Assembly (NCBI RefSeq): GCF_900403705.1 | Contig: NZ_OUNR01000001.1 | Coordinates: forward strand, 434,001-498,000 | Direction: 5' to 3' | DNA length: 64,000 nt | From: Nitrospira lenta | GTDB taxonomy: Bacteria; Nitrospirota; Nitrospiria; Nitrospirales; Nitrospiraceae | Shown here: positions 2,858 to 14,038 of the stretch, one piece after another | How the letters are laid out: every line of letters begins with the position of its first letter | Numbering within the stretch: the first letter of the stretch is position 1 | Made by a program: the position numbers and the translations under genes | The notes under the pieces: model-generated | What the model was told of the DNA's origin: nothing | Databases searched by the model: none | Seen by the model: only the letters and a program-made list of their open reading frames with translations

Positions 2858-3040
2858 TGATCTATGGCAACAGACACCACTATGCGTTCACACAAACCGC
2901 CGCGAAGCCAGGCCAGAAGCAAGGTCATGGACGGCGCACTCGCCCCCATGGACCCGGCCATACGTCCGACAACTGTCACCCTCCCATCGGTGACGAAATG
3001 CACACCATGCAAACGTTCTGAAACTGACACAAGGAACCGA

Positions 3041-4489
3041 ATGAAACACCCGCACGACTCTCTACGCCGGATCAACGCGCAGCCCAGGGTCAATTCGCTC
3101 TGTCTGGTTGGGGCGCTGCTCTTACTTAGCCTCACCAGTATTGAGACGCACGCTTCCGGGATATTGCCGGTCGACGAAGGGGCCGGATCCGTCGGCTTCG
3201 CGTCCGACACACAGCCCTGGCTTATCAGCCATCGCCTGCCCGAAAAGACCGAGACGCAGGATGCCGCGCTCGTGCTTCACGAGCGACCGGAGAACATGGC
3301 CCCCGTAGTGCCGGCGTCGCGCCAGAATCCCGCTGCGGATACCGGAAGACCGTCTCATTGGATCGATCAATGCTCCCCCCGGTTCACCTTCGATCGGTCT
3401 CTTCAAGATGTCGCGTATTCCAGTCCTGCACAGCCGCACGCTGGAGCGATCGACGCAGGAAGCAATGCACCGGCAGTGCCGATTTCTACGCCTCCGTCTT
3501 CAGGCCTTCTCTTCATGACAGCGTTGGTGGGGATGCTGGGGACCGTGACCGCGGTGCGGGGAGAGGCGCGCTTCAAGCGAGCCGTGCCTGCGTCCGACCT
3601 TGCCCCGCCTCGGCGAGGCGCGGCCGTGCCGATTGTCGTGCTCACATCCGACGGTGGGTTGGCCACCCAGCTGGAAGGGTATTTACATCGCGCGGGCTAT
3701 GAAGCCCGAGTGGCAGCCACACCCAGCGAGATCGTTGCCCTCACGGATCCGGCGTCGCTCTTGTTGGTGTTGGTGGATTGCCGGACCCACGATTGGGACA
3801 TGCTTCGGACAGATTCCTCACTGCGCCATGTCCTGCTGATGGCCGTCGTTCCTCCCGACTGCTTCTACACCGAGTGCCATGTGATCGCGGACCTAGAACG
3901 AGGGATGGACGGCATCTACGAGATGCACGACGGGCATCGCCTGTTCATCGCCAAGGTCGGCGCCTATCTCCGGCGGGCGCGATGCGCGAGCGCGCGGCGA
4001 GGCGTCCATCATGTGGGCGCCATTGAGCTGGACGGCGATGCGCACGAGGTGACCATTGCCGGACGGCCGGTGAAGCTCACCACCAAGCCTTTCGCCATTC
4101 TCAGCGTCCTCATGCGGGAACCATCCAAGGTATTCAGCCGAAGCAAATTGATCGATCTTGTATGGGGGCCAGACATTGCAGTCGGCGAACACACCGTAGA
4201 TGTCCATGTGCACGTGCTTCGGCAGCTGCTGGATCGTGAGCCACACTGCCGTTGCGAGCTGCTGACAATCAATCGGATCGGCTTCACCTTGAGACCGGTC
4301 GCCGCCGCCGGATCAATCCGAACGAACAGGCTCCGTCCCATATCCCACGCCAGCTCCGATTCACAAGCACACGCACGAACGACGCCGGGAACTATGTCGA
4401 AGCACGTGGCAGCGCGGGCGCATCGACTCTTGATGGGGCCGCCGCTCAATACCACGGCGAGCGCATGCATTGCGGCGCCCTGCGGATGA
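3041..4489 (+). CDS. Membrane-anchored regulator: extracytoplasmic N-terminus, pseudo-receiver, OmpR-type winged helix
   Basis: A 482-residue protein with an unusual order of parts. It begins with an N-terminal hydrophobic signal or anchor (about residues 17-38, ending THASG), followed by a Pro/Ser-rich stretch of about 115 residues that should lie outside the membrane. A second hydrophobic segment (about 153-173, LLFMTALVGMLGT) is followed by R/K-rich sequence, which places what follows in the cytoplasm. A CheY-like domain (about 195-315) keeps an Asp in LVDCRT but lacks the usual acidic pair and Lys, so it looks like a pseudo-receiver. Last comes an OmpR/PhoB winged helix (about 327-420: LTTKPFAIL, SRSKLIDLVWG, VDVHVHVLRQLL). 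The ATG at 3041 has AAGGAA four bases upstream; an upstream in-frame ATG at 2864 lacks this and gives no signal peptide. It probably controls the neighbouring uptake genes. That role is inferred. Confidence 0.75.
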   Translation: MKHPHDSLRRINAQPRVNSLCLVGALLLLSLTSIETHASGILPVDEGAGSVGFASDTQPWLISHRLPEKTETQDAALVLHERPENMAPVVPASRQNPAADTGRPSHWIDQCSPRFTFDRSLQDVAYSSPAQPHAGAIDAGSNAPAVPISTPPSSGLLFMTALVGMLGTVTAVRGEARFKRAVPASDLAPPRRGAAVPIVVLTSDGGLATQLEGYLHRAGYEARVAATPSEIVALTDPASLLLVLVDCRTHDWDMLRTDSSLRHVLLMAVVPPDCFYTECHVIADLERGMDGIYEMHDGHRLFIAKVGAYLRRARCASARRGVHHVGAIELDGDAHEVTIAGRPVKLTTKPFAILSVLMREPSKVFSRSKLIDLVWGPDIAVGEHTVDVHVHVLRQLLDREPHCRCELLTINRIGFTLRPVAAAGSIRTNRLRPISHASSDSQAHARTTPGTMSKHVAARAHRLLMGPPLNTTASACIAAPCG

Positions 4490-4526: not shown

Positions 4527-5468
4527 ATGCCGGTCAAGATGATAGTCTTCTTCTCTGCGCTTCTGATGACAGTTGCTCCATGGGCAGCCCTGGCGGCGCC
4601 TACAACTCTTCCTTCATCTTCCAGCGCACCAAGGATCGGGGTCCTCCTGGTCAACCACGGGTCCAGATCCGTGACGTGGCGCCAATCCTTGCTCCAACTT
4701 GAAGCCCAGGTCGCTCCGACGATCATGCAGGGCCACGCAGTCCAGTCCGTTAAAACCGCGTTCATGGAATACACGGAGCCGTCCATCGCCACTCGCATGA
4801 AAGAATTCGATCACGAAGGATTCACCGACGTCATCATTGTGCCGGTCTTCTTGACCGTCAGCCCCCATACCTTTGACGACATTCCCACCATTGTGGGACT
4901 GAAGGAAGATCCGCATTCCATGCAGCAGCTCAAGATTGAAAATATCCAGCGGTACTCTCCGAAAGCCAAACCTCACATTACCCCGCCGCTCGACTTTACA
5001 GACATCCTTCAGAAGAACCTCCTCAGACGAGTGACGGCTCTCTCACACAATCCGGCTGATGAGGGTCTCGTGCTGATTGGATACGGCGATGAGACCTACG
5101 ACAAGGAATGGGTTGAGCTCTTCAACAAAGCGGCAGGCTACGTCAGAGAGCATACGGGCATTACGGGATATTCCTACGGCTGGTGCGGCCATATCGCGAA
5201 CTATAAACCTGAAGAGACGACTGCGGCCATCAACTCGGTCCTCAAAACGTCAGGCACAGCCCTCGTCATCCCTGTGCTGGTTGCGCACGACGAACAGTTT
5301 CAAATTAAGATTATCGGCGATGGGATCGCCAAAGTCCCCGACAGTAAAAAGCGTGTGCAATATAGACCGGATTCCATTCTGCCCGATCCGAACATCGAGC
5401 GATGGGTGGTCGCGGTCACCGACGAGTATGTGCGGAAGATTCAACCGCAAGTCTCCAGAGTGAACTGA
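4527..5468 (+). CDS. Exported CbiK/CbiX-type tetrapyrrole metal chelatase
   Basis: A 313-residue protein with a clear Sec signal peptide (residues 1-24, cleavage near AALAAP), so it acts in the periplasm or is membrane-associated. The mature part resembles the two-lobed class II chelatases CbiK/CbiX, which insert Co2+ or Fe2+ into sirohydrochlorin. It has LLVNHGSR (catalytic-type His near residue 43), VPVFLTVSPHTFDDIP, and in the second lobe VLIGYGDE and IPVLVAHDEQ. Cytoplasmic homologues make siroheme or cobalamin; exported forms are known in Desulfovibrio, where a role in metal or heme handling has been proposed. A perfect AGGAGG lies six bases before the start. The stop overlaps the start of the next gene (TGATG), so the two are translationally coupled. 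Position after a TonB receptor supports a role in handling an imported metal or tetrapyrrole. Confidence 0.75.
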   Translation: MPVKMIVFFSALLMTVAPWAALAAPTTLPSSSSAPRIGVLLVNHGSRSVTWRQSLLQLEAQVAPTIMQGHAVQSVKTAFMEYTEPSIATRMKEFDHEGFTDVIIVPVFLTVSPHTFDDIPTIVGLKEDPHSMQQLKIENIQRYSPKAKPHITPPLDFTDILQKNLLRRVTALSHNPADEGLVLIGYGDETYDKEWVELFNKAAGYVREHTGITGYSYGWCGHIANYKPEETTAAINSVLKTSGTALVIPVLVAHDEQFQIKIIGDGIAKVPDSKKRVQYRPDSILPDPNIERWVVAVTDEYVRKIQPQVSRVN

Positions 5469-6064
5469 TGCTGAAATGGATGACAACCAGACTCCGCTGG
5501 CCGGGACCGGACGCCATCACGCGCTTCAACATGGCGGCGCACAGGGACATCGGATATGCCTGCGCCTCTCTGATTCTGGCCTATTGCCTGTCAGGCATTG
5601 CCCTCAATCATATCGGCGATTGGAATCCTGATTTCATCGTGTCGAGACAGTCGATCTCGTTGCCTCATCCCTTCGCGAAAGAAGACATTACACAAGAACG
5701 AATCGCGGAGTTTGGACAACTGGTCCAGGAAGAGAACTACAAGGTCTACGATTTCCCGACCTCCGACCAGGTCAAAATCTATTATGACAACGCGTCGCTT
5801 CATCTGCATTTCGCGGACGGACGCGGCACCTATGAGAAAGTCTCTCGGAGACCGGTTTTATATCAGGTCAACGCCTTGCACTTGAATCGCCTCAAAGGAT
5901 GGAAATGGGCGGCGGACGCGTTTGCACTGATCTTGATTATCCTCAGCTTTACAGGATTGTTCCTTTTGAAAGGCAAGTATGGAATGGCGCGCAGAGGGAA
6001 ATGGCTGGTTGCCGTCGGCATGCTGCCGCCGTTGCTGGCGCTGCTGCTGTTTGAGCTGAAGTGA
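5468..6064 (+). CDS. PepSY-like small membrane protein
   Basis: A 198-residue membrane protein whose ATG overlaps the stop of the chelatase gene by one base. Near the N-terminus RFNMAAHRDIGYACAS leads into a transmembrane helix (about residues 22-42, SLILAYCLSGIALNH). An extracytoplasmic loop of about 90 residues follows, including ITQERIAEFGQLVQEE and YYDNASLHLHFADG, a PepSY-like arrangement. The end has a second helix (LILIILSFTGLFLL), a short basic loop (KGKYGMARRGK) and a third hydrophobic helix ending in FELK. PepSY-TM proteins often accompany TonB receptors and are thought to act in iron-siderophore reduction or release. That role here is inferred from family and neighbours. This is a short form: the multi-domain PepSY-TM reductases are usually two or more times longer. 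Confidence 0.65.
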   Translation: MLKWMTTRLRWPGPDAITRFNMAAHRDIGYACASLILAYCLSGIALNHIGDWNPDFIVSRQSISLPHPFAKEDITQERIAEFGQLVQEENYKVYDFPTSDQVKIYYDNASLHLHFADGRGTYEKVSRRPVLYQVNALHLNRLKGWKWAADAFALILIILSFTGLFLLKGKYGMARRGKWLVAVGMLPPLLALLLFELK

Positions 6065-6349: not shown

Positions 6350-6820
6350 TTACGACTTAATCTGCTCGGCGAGATACCCCGTCAACCCCACCTGGGCGAT
6401 CGTGGTGAGTTGTCGCTCAAAGTAATCGACATGTTCTTCTGAATCCACCACCATCTCTTCCAACTTCTGGCGGGTAGTAAAGTCTCCGACTGCGGTCGCA
6501 TGAACGATCGCCTTCCGCAGCATCTCCACATCTTCCCGTTCAAACGCCAGGTTGGTCTCGAAAAGACCTTGCACCGACTGACTCCCCTTTACCTCGTCTA
6601 ACTTCCCAACATCCGGCTGGCCGCCCAGATACAGCATATGACGAACCAGCTGCGAGGAATGAGTGACTTCTTCCGTATACAAATGTTGAAACTTATCGGC
6701 CAATCGTTCATAGCCCCAGTGACGGCACAGCTCTGCGTGCAACAGATATTGATGCACCGCAGTTAACTCGGCGGTCAGGATGGTTCCAAGCTGATCGAGA
6801 ATCCCCTCTTTGGCTTTCAT
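6350..6820 (-). CDS. bfr: Bacterioferritin subunit with ferroxidase-type site but no heme Met
   Basis: A 156-residue protein, full length for bacterioferritin (E. coli Bfr 158), that aligns without gaps. Ferroxidase ligands E18, E51, H54, E94 and H130 are present; E127 is Ser, though D126 and E128/E129 flank it. The heme-ligating Met52 of classical Bfr is Val here (EVTH), so this subunit should not bind the inter-subunit heme by itself. It would oxidise Fe2+ and store iron as a 24-mer shell in the cytoplasm. It is the downstream gene of a two-gene unit, 45 bp after the second bfr, with AAAGGGAA before its ATG. The neighbour has the reverse residue pattern, so a mixed shell is likely. Confidence 0.93.
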   Translation of the reverse strand: MKAKEGILDQLGTILTAELTAVHQYLLHAELCRHWGYERLADKFQHLYTEEVTHSSQLVRHMLYLGGQPDVGKLDEVKGSQSVQGLFETNLAFEREDVEMLRKAIVHATAVGDFTTRQKLEEMVVDSEEHVDYFERQLTTIAQVGLTGYLAEQIKS

Positions 6821-6865: not shown

Positions 6866-7342
6866 CTAGCCTTCCTTCGTGATCTGCTCGGCAAGATACA
6901 TCTCCAGGCCGACCTGCTTGATCGTTTCCATCTGCGTTTCGATCCAATCGATGTGCGCATCCACATCTTTCGCCATTTCTTCGAGCATATGGCGGGTCGT
7001 GAAGTCGGTCACCTTCATGCAATGCACGACGCCTTCATTCAGCAGCGTCAGCATTTCCTGCTCGGCCGCCAGATCCAGCTTGAACTGTTCCGGCACCGTC
7101 TCGCCGACATGCACCGTATTCATGCGCTGCACGTTCGGCACGCCTTCGAGATAGAGGATGTGCCCGATGAGTTCGTCGGCATCTTTCATTTCATCGATGC
7201 TGCGCTCGCGCACCTTATGCTGCAACCGTTCAAAGCCCCAGTTCTCGCACATCTTGGCATGCACAAAATACTGATTGATGGCCGTCAGGTCGGCCGTCAG
7301 CACCTTATTCAGAATATTGATGACGCCCTCTTTTGCTTTCAT
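6866..7342 (-). CDS. bfr: Bacterioferritin subunit with heme Met52 but degraded ferroxidase site
   Basis: A 158-residue protein, the same length as E. coli Bfr. The heme ligand Met52 is kept in the exact context SIDEMKDAD. Several ferroxidase positions are altered: E18 is Asp, H54 is Asp and E127 is Val, while E51, E94 and H130 remain. Such a subunit should bind heme b at the two-fold interface but oxidise iron poorly. Two-type shells with this division of labour are known from Magnetospirillum, Neisseria and Pseudomonas. It is the first gene of the pair; AAGGGGG precedes the ATG, and a sigma70-type promoter lies about 80 bp upstream. The heme could serve as the electron exit for releasing stored iron. 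Confidence 0.93.
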   Translation of the reverse strand: MKAKEGVINILNKVLTADLTAINQYFVHAKMCENWGFERLQHKVRERSIDEMKDADELIGHILYLEGVPNVQRMNTVHVGETVPEQFKLDLAAEQEMLTLLNEGVVHCMKVTDFTTRHMLEEMAKDVDAHIDWIETQMETIKQVGLEMYLAEQITKEG

Positions 7343-12916: not shown

Positions 12917-14038
12917 TCAATAGAACAAACTCAGCCGTCTCCGTTTGACGTTCAGCAACAATCCCAACGACGCCATGGTCATGATCGTCGCGCTGCCTCC
13001 GTAGCTCATCAAGGGCAGCGGAATTCCGACGATCGGGAACATCCCGGCCGTCATCCCGATATTCACCACGACGCAAAAGCACAACATGGCGACAATACCG
13101 GCAGCCAGGAGCGCGCCCAATTGATCTTTCGCCTTCGATGCAATCTCCAGAGAGAGCCAGATCAGTGCGACAAACAGCACCAACAATAGCAACACTCCCA
13201 AGAATCCCCATTCTTCCGCATAGACGGCAAACACAAAGTCTGTATGGCCCTCCGGAAGGAACTTCAGCTGGCTTTGCGTCCCTCCGTAGAGGCCCTTGCC
13301 CATCAGCTCGCCGGATCCGATCGCAATTCTAGACTGTAGGGCATGATAACCCTTTCCTCCCGGATCGTATTCCGGGTCGACGAAGGCCATAATGCGCTGT
13401 CGTTGATAATCATGCAAGGACCCCCAGACCCCTTCCCAGGCAAATGGGAACAGCATGACGATCAGGAGGAGAATGACGCCCAAGGCCTTTGAGCGCACGC
13501 CGACCATTAACAGCATGGCGGCATACACGGCCACGAAACTCAATCCGCTGCCTAAGTCGGGCTGTTTCAGGATCAAGACCAGACCGGGAAACATCAGCAT
13601 GCCCGGCATAATCACCCGCTGCAACCACCCCACCCGAGGCGCCTTCGAATAGTAATGCGCCAACACGAGGATCAAGACCAGCTTGGCGAATTCGGAGGGC
13701 TGCACGCCAAACGGACCGAGCGAAATCCAGCGCTGCGCGCCTTTGCTGGTGCGCCCATCGACCAGCACAAATGCCAGCATGAGCAACACGACCCCGTAGA
13801 GCGGGTAGGCCAGCCGTGCGATGCGATGATAATCGGACACCAACATGAACACGAAAGCCGCACTGCCCATGAGAATCCAGGCCATCTGCTTGACGTAGTA
13901 GGGCGCAAGGCCCGCCTGCTGGCTGTGCGTCACGCTGTGGATCGACAGAACGCCGATCCCCAGGATAGAGAATACTAATGCCAAAAACCGATAGTCGAAA
14001 CTATCGAGCCCCCGGCTGTCGGTCAGACGATCAATCAT
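12917..14038 (-). CDS. rodA: Rod-shape SEDS peptidoglycan polymerase RodA
   Basis: A 373-residue integral membrane protein with about ten hydrophobic helices and SEDS-family motifs (SIHSVTHSQ, GPFGVQPSEFAKL, IALKQPDLGS-like LILKQPDLGSGLSF, GIPLPLMSYGGS near the end). RodA polymerises lipid II into glycan strands of the side wall together with PBP2. It is the last gene of the mre-mrd cluster, 33 bp after mrdA (PBP2). This pairing is the standard elongasome arrangement and implies a rod or helical cell shape, in line with Nitrospira morphology. Confidence 0.95.
   Translation of the reverse strand: MIDRLTDSRGLDSFDYRFLALVFSILGIGVLSIHSVTHSQQAGLAPYYVKQMAWILMGSAAFVFMLVSDYHRIARLAYPLYGVVLLMLAFVLVDGRTSKGAQRWISLGPFGVQPSEFAKLVLILVLAHYYSKAPRVGWLQRVIMPGMLMFPGLVLILKQPDLGSGLSFVAVYAAMLLMVGVRSKALGVILLLIVMLFPFAWEGVWGSLHDYQRQRIMAFVDPEYDPGGKGYHALQSRIAIGSGELMGKGLYGGTQSQLKFLPEGHTDFVFAVYAEEWGFLGVLLLLVLFVALIWLSLEIASKAKDQLGALLAAGIVAMLCFCVVVNIGMTAGMFPIVGIPLPLMSYGGSATIMTMASLGLLLNVKRRRLSLFY

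Follow-up and report, generated by a model that had tools for sequence, protein, structure and literature searches.

We propose that a gene of Nitrospira lenta (positions 3041 to 4489, + strand; all positions refer to the window, the whole 64,000-nucleotide stretch of DNA analysed here) encodes a transcription regulator that acts on PEP-CTERM/exosortase-linked genes and is anchored in the membrane by a tether co-opted from a sorting signal, a reading to which, working from sequence, we assign a probability of about 0.6. PEP-CTERM is the tag by which exosortases sort surface proteins, and many environmental bacteria make surface proteins and flocs by means of PEP-CTERM/exosortase systems. An initial annotation of this DNA had the coordinates, frame and domain order right, as the open reading frame, Pfam and AlphaFold2 agree, and it took the topology to be the uncommon feature. 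It missed both the relation of the membrane segment to PEP-CTERM and the place of the gene among PEP-CTERM/exosortase genes. By itself the topology has precedent: a survey of transmembrane transcription regulators (TTRs) lists 50,302 of them, 9.2% with a response-regulator domain, and Rsp of Neisseria likewise has an N-terminal membrane part and a C-terminal DNA-binding domain (PMC10269533). What sets the protein apart is its sorting-signal tether rather than the inverted topology.

The regulator (482 amino acids) opens at an ATG at 3041, preceded on the same strand by a Shine-Dalgarno-like AAGGA (3031 to 3035) that ends five bases 5' of it. Hydropathy peaks at about aa 17-35 and aa 153-171, and AlphaFold2, run with 22 sequences, places helices at 14-32 and 154-171, disorder from 33 to 152 and in the C-terminal tail, and, as initially claimed, two folded domains, the receiver between 196 and 316 and the winged helix between 322 and 420, for the most part with a pLDDT of about 90-97. 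The first of the two hydrophobic stretches resembles a cleavable signal peptide (aa 1-39, 3041 to 3157, +) with a basic start, a hydrophobic core at 17-35 and a predicted THA/SG-type cleavage region; AxA-like sites stand at the matching position in the N-termini of relatives, and in hydropathy, charge and these sites the protein has the N-terminal signal peptide of a PEP-CTERM substrate. There follow, all on the + strand, a Ser/Pro/Ala-rich periplasmic stretch (aa 40-145, 3158 to 3475), the degenerate PEP-CTERM-like membrane segment VPISTPPSSGLLFMTALVGMLGTVTAV (aa 146-172, 3476 to 3556), identified by tag score, alignment and the AlphaFold2 helix, a degenerate receiver domain (aa 196-316, 3626 to 3988), an OmpR/PhoB-type winged helix (aa 322-420, 4004 to 4300) and a weakly constrained disordered tail (aa 421-482, 4301 to 4486; dN/dS). 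Some relatives end in ..AALAG, which raised the idea of an ssrA-like degron; the window protein has no such end. The net charge is +3 before the first stretch, −6 in the ectodomain and +4 after the second stretch, which by the positive-inside rule indicates a signal peptide and an N-out, C-in orientation, and with a DNA-binding domain and at least one membrane segment the protein is by prediction a TTR. Charges, AlphaFold2 and the PF00486 match thus support the single N-out/C-in span, degenerate receiver and C-terminal OmpR-type winged helix first described. Two hydrophobic stretches had been read as membrane segments, of which the second holds while the first is more probably cleaved. The outer part had also been called a sensor, a label that does not suit a region predicted to be disordered and among the fastest-evolving of the protein (dN/dS mostly 0.37-0.72, 0.08 in one close pair, against 0.05-0.46 in 10/10 pairs for the membrane segment), and the idea of an inverted ToxR with a folded periplasmic sensor was discarded on the predicted disorder.

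The relation of the membrane segment to sorting signals is clearest in the relatives. A textbook VPLPA/PEP-CTERM signal stands before the receiver in L047/L111, L048/L112, L049, L080, L081, L084, L109 and L110, with segments such as APVPLPAGIILFGSGLCGIVGIVIRRQ and TEQVPIPAAVVLFGSGLCGIVGIVVRRQ, and in scans of the N-terminal parts of these canonical members nearly all matches are to PEP-CTERM families, with E values of about 0.002-0.6 that lie under the whole-protein cut-offs. We built a position-specific tag score from 58 neighbouring PEP-CTERM tags, with 352 other transmembrane segments as background; the five top-scoring controls were PEP-CTERM proteins that the filter had missed and were set aside, which leaves −12.9 as the best genuine control. 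Canonical members (L080, L081, L084, L109-L112) score 25 to 41 and have the complete tripartite signal, and almost all degenerate members score −12 to +12, mostly above every genuine control, in a comparison mildly biased towards the family by its longer search span. L102 scores −13.5 and the window segment −17.1, the weakest in the family, within the top 2.6% of the controls. The window segment matches no PEP-CTERM profile in our scans and has neither GSG nor an arginine pair directly after the helix, where the basic stretch RGEARFKR stands; the P/S/S-LLF-G-G features of the tag are retained family-wide. Hence the kinship to PEP-CTERM tags is strong for the family, and as most other members outscore the controls while the window segment ranks within their top 2.6%, its own case rests on homology to that family. 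Having no arginine pair and no GSG, the window copy is more likely to be bound or simply anchored than cut.

The signal is not at the extreme C-terminus, as about 300 aa follow the segment, and the few PEP-CTERM regions with long tails are perhaps non-functional according to Haft and colleagues (PMC1569441). Purifying selection and recurrence argue that the internal tags of this family are not mere debris, and PMC11980579 describes sorting tags that function mid-protein.

When 84,980 species genomes were scanned, 23 close relatives came back, all from Nitrospira or Nitrospirae MAGs; 13 further hits matched ordinary regulators of other phyla only weakly. The family proper (matches better than about 1e-80) is present in 21/79 genus genomes, and on these genome sequences it is a Nitrospira-only family. 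When a tree is built from the cytoplasmic part, the family, with at least 29 distinct relatives, forms one clade (support 100/100), within which the canonical-tag clade is nested (support 100/100) and of which the basal state is a signal peptide plus membrane segment; the nearest outgroup regulators are soluble and OmpR-type, and for some of them an exosortase gene lies about 15 kb away. Two lineages (L108; L113-L117) lost the N-terminal half and are now soluble, so that an anchor-less form is viable in the family and the window form differs from it. A direct view of how a tag can join a regulator comes from L084, in which the N-terminal half is a complete PEP-CTERM protein fused in frame: alignment of its 205 aa over essentially full length gives 51% identity (E 4e-63) to a PEP-CTERM protein that stands alone at L101:8222-8896, directly upstream of the L101 regulator. 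Two adjacent genes in one genome are thus a single gene in another. The degenerate segments may be decayed canonical tags; alternatively, new fusions like that of L084 may have refreshed the tag in the canonical clade. In genome G019 the regulator (L042 6047-7369 / L099 8863-10185) has an N-terminal half without a signal peptide and no upstream PEP-CTERM gene, and is probably truncated.

The gene neighbourhood leads to the same protein class. The window begins with the 3' part of a canonical VPLPA-CTERM (PEP-CTERM) gene (1 to 384, +; TIGR03370 33.9 bits, above the cut-off of 25.35), which ends in ..APVPLPAAVYLMGSGLAGIAAMARRRQRAV and is complete at G000:C1:433740-434384 (214 aa). Between it and the regulator lies a TonB-dependent receptor matched by hemin/siderophore-type profiles (338 to 2857, +; PF00593 120.3 bits, PF07715 80.8, and TIGR01785 307 bits, just below its cut-off of 316.85). 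A CbiX-like chelatase-fold protein with a signal-peptide-like N-terminus (4527 to 5468, +; PF01903 58.2 bits) starts 38 bases after the regulator, and the final gene of the conserved cluster encodes a PepSY-like membrane protein (5402 to 6064, +; PF16357 64.8 bits; the true start is probably past 5402). The same PEP-CTERM / TonB receptor / regulator / CbiX-like / PepSY order recurs at L095, L113, L115 and L116, and clusters of this type have TonB and a further CbiX-like protein upstream; judged from family names, they look like systems for envelope metal or tetrapyrrole uptake. Another set of loci closes an XrtA exopolysaccharide cluster with an XrtA chain-length protein, a tyrosine autokinase and an ATPase. 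At nearly all sufficiently long loci a PEP-CTERM gene on the same strand is immediately upstream of the regulator or one TonB-receptor gene away, the exceptions being L099, with its truncated N-terminus, and L083, where there is 1.2 kb of sequence only, and the soluble outgroup regulators have no PEP-CTERM gene within about 1.4 kb.

Some further elements accompany these clusters. Two tandem bacterioferritin-like genes (MKAKEG..), assigned by eye, lie by the window cluster at 6350-6820 and 6866-7342 on the − strand. A conserved leader, GGCAGGCGGTGCGGGGCCGCTGC .. GGCCTCTGCGGGTGAGGCGGTGA, which might be a structured RNA, precedes the PEP-CTERM gene of TonB-type clusters, with copies just before the window (L050:13640-13762), at L095:4585-4702 and 5545-5655, and at L115 and L116; a comparison of leader and cluster with Rfam gave a chance-level match only. 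TonB-type clusters also encode a small conserved protein (..VKSRLSALYDELITHDGFAEMSVEIRLLKRGQKEVILHCGRQYRFV..), whose gene lies just before that of the PEP-CTERM protein (L050 about 13410-13610, L095, L115, L116).

The best-surviving alternative is that the protein is an ordinary one-component membrane regulator, in which the ectodomain or dimerisation of the membrane segments senses a periplasmic ligand or the state of the envelope, and the segment, captured by fusion with a PEP-CTERM gene, is an anchor with no exosortase role. This we consider possible, if doubtful: the window segment indeed differs from canonical tags in GSG and RR, degenerate signals prevail outside one clade, and receiver-bearing membrane regulators are common (PMC10269533). 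However, the tag features persist while the ectodomain, disordered by prediction, evolves fast, at least seven members keep a textbook tag, and PEP-CTERM genes adjoin the regulator throughout, all of which speaks against this alternative.

Genome-wide statistics were derived from family searches and pattern searches. The 21 regulator-bearing genomes have a median of 8 VPLPA-CTERM proteins, the other 58 a median of 0. Mapped on a topoisomerase I tree, the presence of the regulator takes 9 changes to explain, and the VPLPA-CTERM set goes with it in 8/8 independent pairs on supported branches (sign test p 0.008). Five genomes whose topoisomerase I is 98-99% identical to that of the window genome, G000:C1 (G032, G065, G029, G025 and G093), are without the regulator and nearly without VPLPA-CTERM proteins, hence the regulator and the VPLPA-CTERM gene set are gained or lost together quickly; some of this co-occurrence could be due to the transfer of a single linked cluster. 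An exosortase is found in nearly all genus genomes, so presence of the regulator does not track the exosortase, which is not the limiting partner.

A candidate DNA target was found for part of the family. The 27-bp box TTTTTTGTCACATCTGTWGCATCYGTTG, which reads as tandem 9-bp repeats, precedes PEP-CTERM genes adjoining XrtA-type regulators and also unlinked PEP-CTERM genes. Allowing up to 2 mismatches, we find it in 16/21 regulator-bearing genomes and in 4/58 of the others (Fisher 3e-9, uncorrected for kinship), or, for unlinked sites only, in 13 versus 4 genomes (1e-6, likewise uncorrected for kinship); on the tree about 6/8 independent pairs agree and almost none disagree, and the reversed pattern, used as a control, has 3 matches in total. 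At this threshold the box is absent from the window genome and from TonB-type loci. When up to 3 mismatches were allowed it was rejected as a target of the window regulator, as the window genome has two such sites, none near the cluster, and none precedes its PEP-CTERM genes. We regard the box as a candidate target for members at XrtA loci but not for the window protein. An ordinary sigma-54 promoter is another possible reading of the box, which its spacing fits, although the invariant GG reads GT and the box continues into the 9-bp repeats. Sites are spread across L161-L190 (e.g., position 1501 in each of L164, L167 and L183), and the box also precedes genes for small proteins that carry ..RAPP.. 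close to their C-terminus (L181, L184, L187).

An acidic pair, a Thr and a Lys are what Mg-dependent phosphorylation of receivers needs. In the window protein, by residue correspondence in the alignments, the acidic pair is replaced by T202/S203, the beta-4 Thr by a hydrophobic residue, and the beta-5 Lys is gone, but 22/22 relatives keep the Asp of the phospho-acceptor position D246 (codon 3776 to 3778, +), which sits in a DxRxxxWxxLRT signature. Hence, with D246 alone remaining of the catalytic residues, the domain is not a canonical response regulator, and nor is it one of the aspartate-less receivers, in which the phospho-Asp is replaced (PMC4395418). The absence of the acidic pair and Lys had been recognized initially, but the term 'receiver relic' fits poorly with an invariant D246. 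The sole Pfam match in the protein is Trans_reg_C (PF00486, aa 341-417, 63.7 bits against a cut-off of 26.2, 1.7e-17), with no match to Response_reg or to the sigma-54 interaction and Fis domains of the PrsR type; Foldseek finds a PhoB/KdpE/RpaA-like receiver fold, groups the cytoplasmic part with KdpE, RpaA, PrrA and PhoB, and agrees with the PF00486 score on an OmpR/PhoB-type winged helix. Phosphorylation of D246 in trans by an orphan kinase, with the tether merely fixing location, would account for the invariance of this residue and suits the soluble OmpR-type outgroup, some of whose members lie about 15 kb from an exosortase gene, but we regard it as improbable as the acidic pair, Thr and Lys are lost throughout the family and Pfam/NCBIfam scans of those neighbours covered revealed no kinase gene beside the regulators. 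It is least likely of all, to the point of being hardly credible, that translation mainly starts past the membrane segment to yield a soluble regulator, the case named initially as refuting the architecture, for although soluble orthologues hold the same gene position, 3041 has a good ribosome-binding site, the signal peptide and membrane segment persist down to about 35% identity among relatives, and the dN/dS of that segment is low.

On the reading of a tether co-opted from a sorting signal, the signal peptide and PEP-CTERM-derived segment would thread the regulator through the inner membrane and place it where PEP-CTERM substrates meet the exosortase, and the status of substrate or exosortase in the membrane would set its activity. 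It would most likely control PEP-CTERM surface-protein genes and their partners, for the window protein the PEP-CTERM / TonB receptor / CbiX-like / PepSY cluster. Computation shows the domain order, the kinship of the segment to PEP-CTERM signals, the gene linkage and the joint gain and loss with VPLPA-CTERM proteins; we infer these DNA targets, the box included, as well as the nature of the signal and whether the exosortase would cut the tether or merely bind it. Exosortase processing is a plausible input signal; the specific version in which cleavage or occupancy of the tether by XrtA switches the activity or release of the factor, canonical members being substrates and the window type pseudo-substrates, is put forward tentatively. 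The soluble members L113-L117 share the gene position of tethered ones, hence tethering must be dispensable somewhere.

ToxR, CadC and TcpP carry a cytoplasmic N-terminal winged helix and a sensor outside at the C-terminus. The Nitrospira protein falls outside that family, its winged helix (aa 322-420) following the membrane helix (154-171). With ToxR, CadC, TcpP, hybrid TTRs and Rsp (PMC10269533) it shares a DNA-binding domain and a span in one protein and an OmpR-type winged helix, but here the winged helix is C-terminal, the orientation N-out, the tether derived from a sorting signal and a degenerate receiver lies between. With the substrates of the PEP-CTERM/exosortase system (EpsH, XrtA; Haft 2006, PMC1569441) the family shares a signal peptide, a low-complexity ectodomain, in the canonical clade P-x-P followed by a membrane segment and Arg, and the XrtA-gene neighbourhood, and the L084 ectodomain is a true PEP-CTERM homologue; in contrast to them, its tag is internal, about 300 aa of cytoplasmic regulator follow, and the window tag is degenerate. 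Mid-protein tags also occur in the ArtA Tat substrate of Haloferax and in MXAN_5598 of Myxococcus (PMC11980579, PMC7157517); a beta-barrel/OmpA region follows the MXAN_5598 tag where the Nitrospira protein has a transcription factor. The PrsK/PrsR/PrsT system of Proteobacteria (PMC1569441) is likewise a regulator linked to PEP-CTERM genes with a common upstream DNA element, but PrsR works with a separate kinase and is a sigma-54 activator similar to NtrC, whereas the Nitrospira protein is OmpR-type and membrane-tethered. A parallel to the proposed logic, reading the sorting status of surface proteins in the membrane, is the S. gordonii SGO_1180 circuit, in which what sortase substrates leave behind in the membrane serves as a signal (Hall 2019, cited in PMC11502775 and PMC11326707); a histidine kinase there reads the sortase C-peptide remnant, whereas here the tag would sit within the transcription factor itself, and the proteins are unrelated. 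In the open-access texts searched we found no description of a tag-regulator fusion, or of PEP-CTERM/exosortase control outside Proteobacteria.

Such proteins may couple surface-protein sorting to gene expression, as close relatives still bear a textbook tag in this position. A transcription factor anchored by a sorting signal would, if true, be a direct feedback handle, and the canonical, degenerate and tagless members, together with the candidate DNA box, provide a natural comparison set. If the exosortase is the switch, the cell would measure its own surface-protein sorting and adjust the expression of PEP-CTERM genes.
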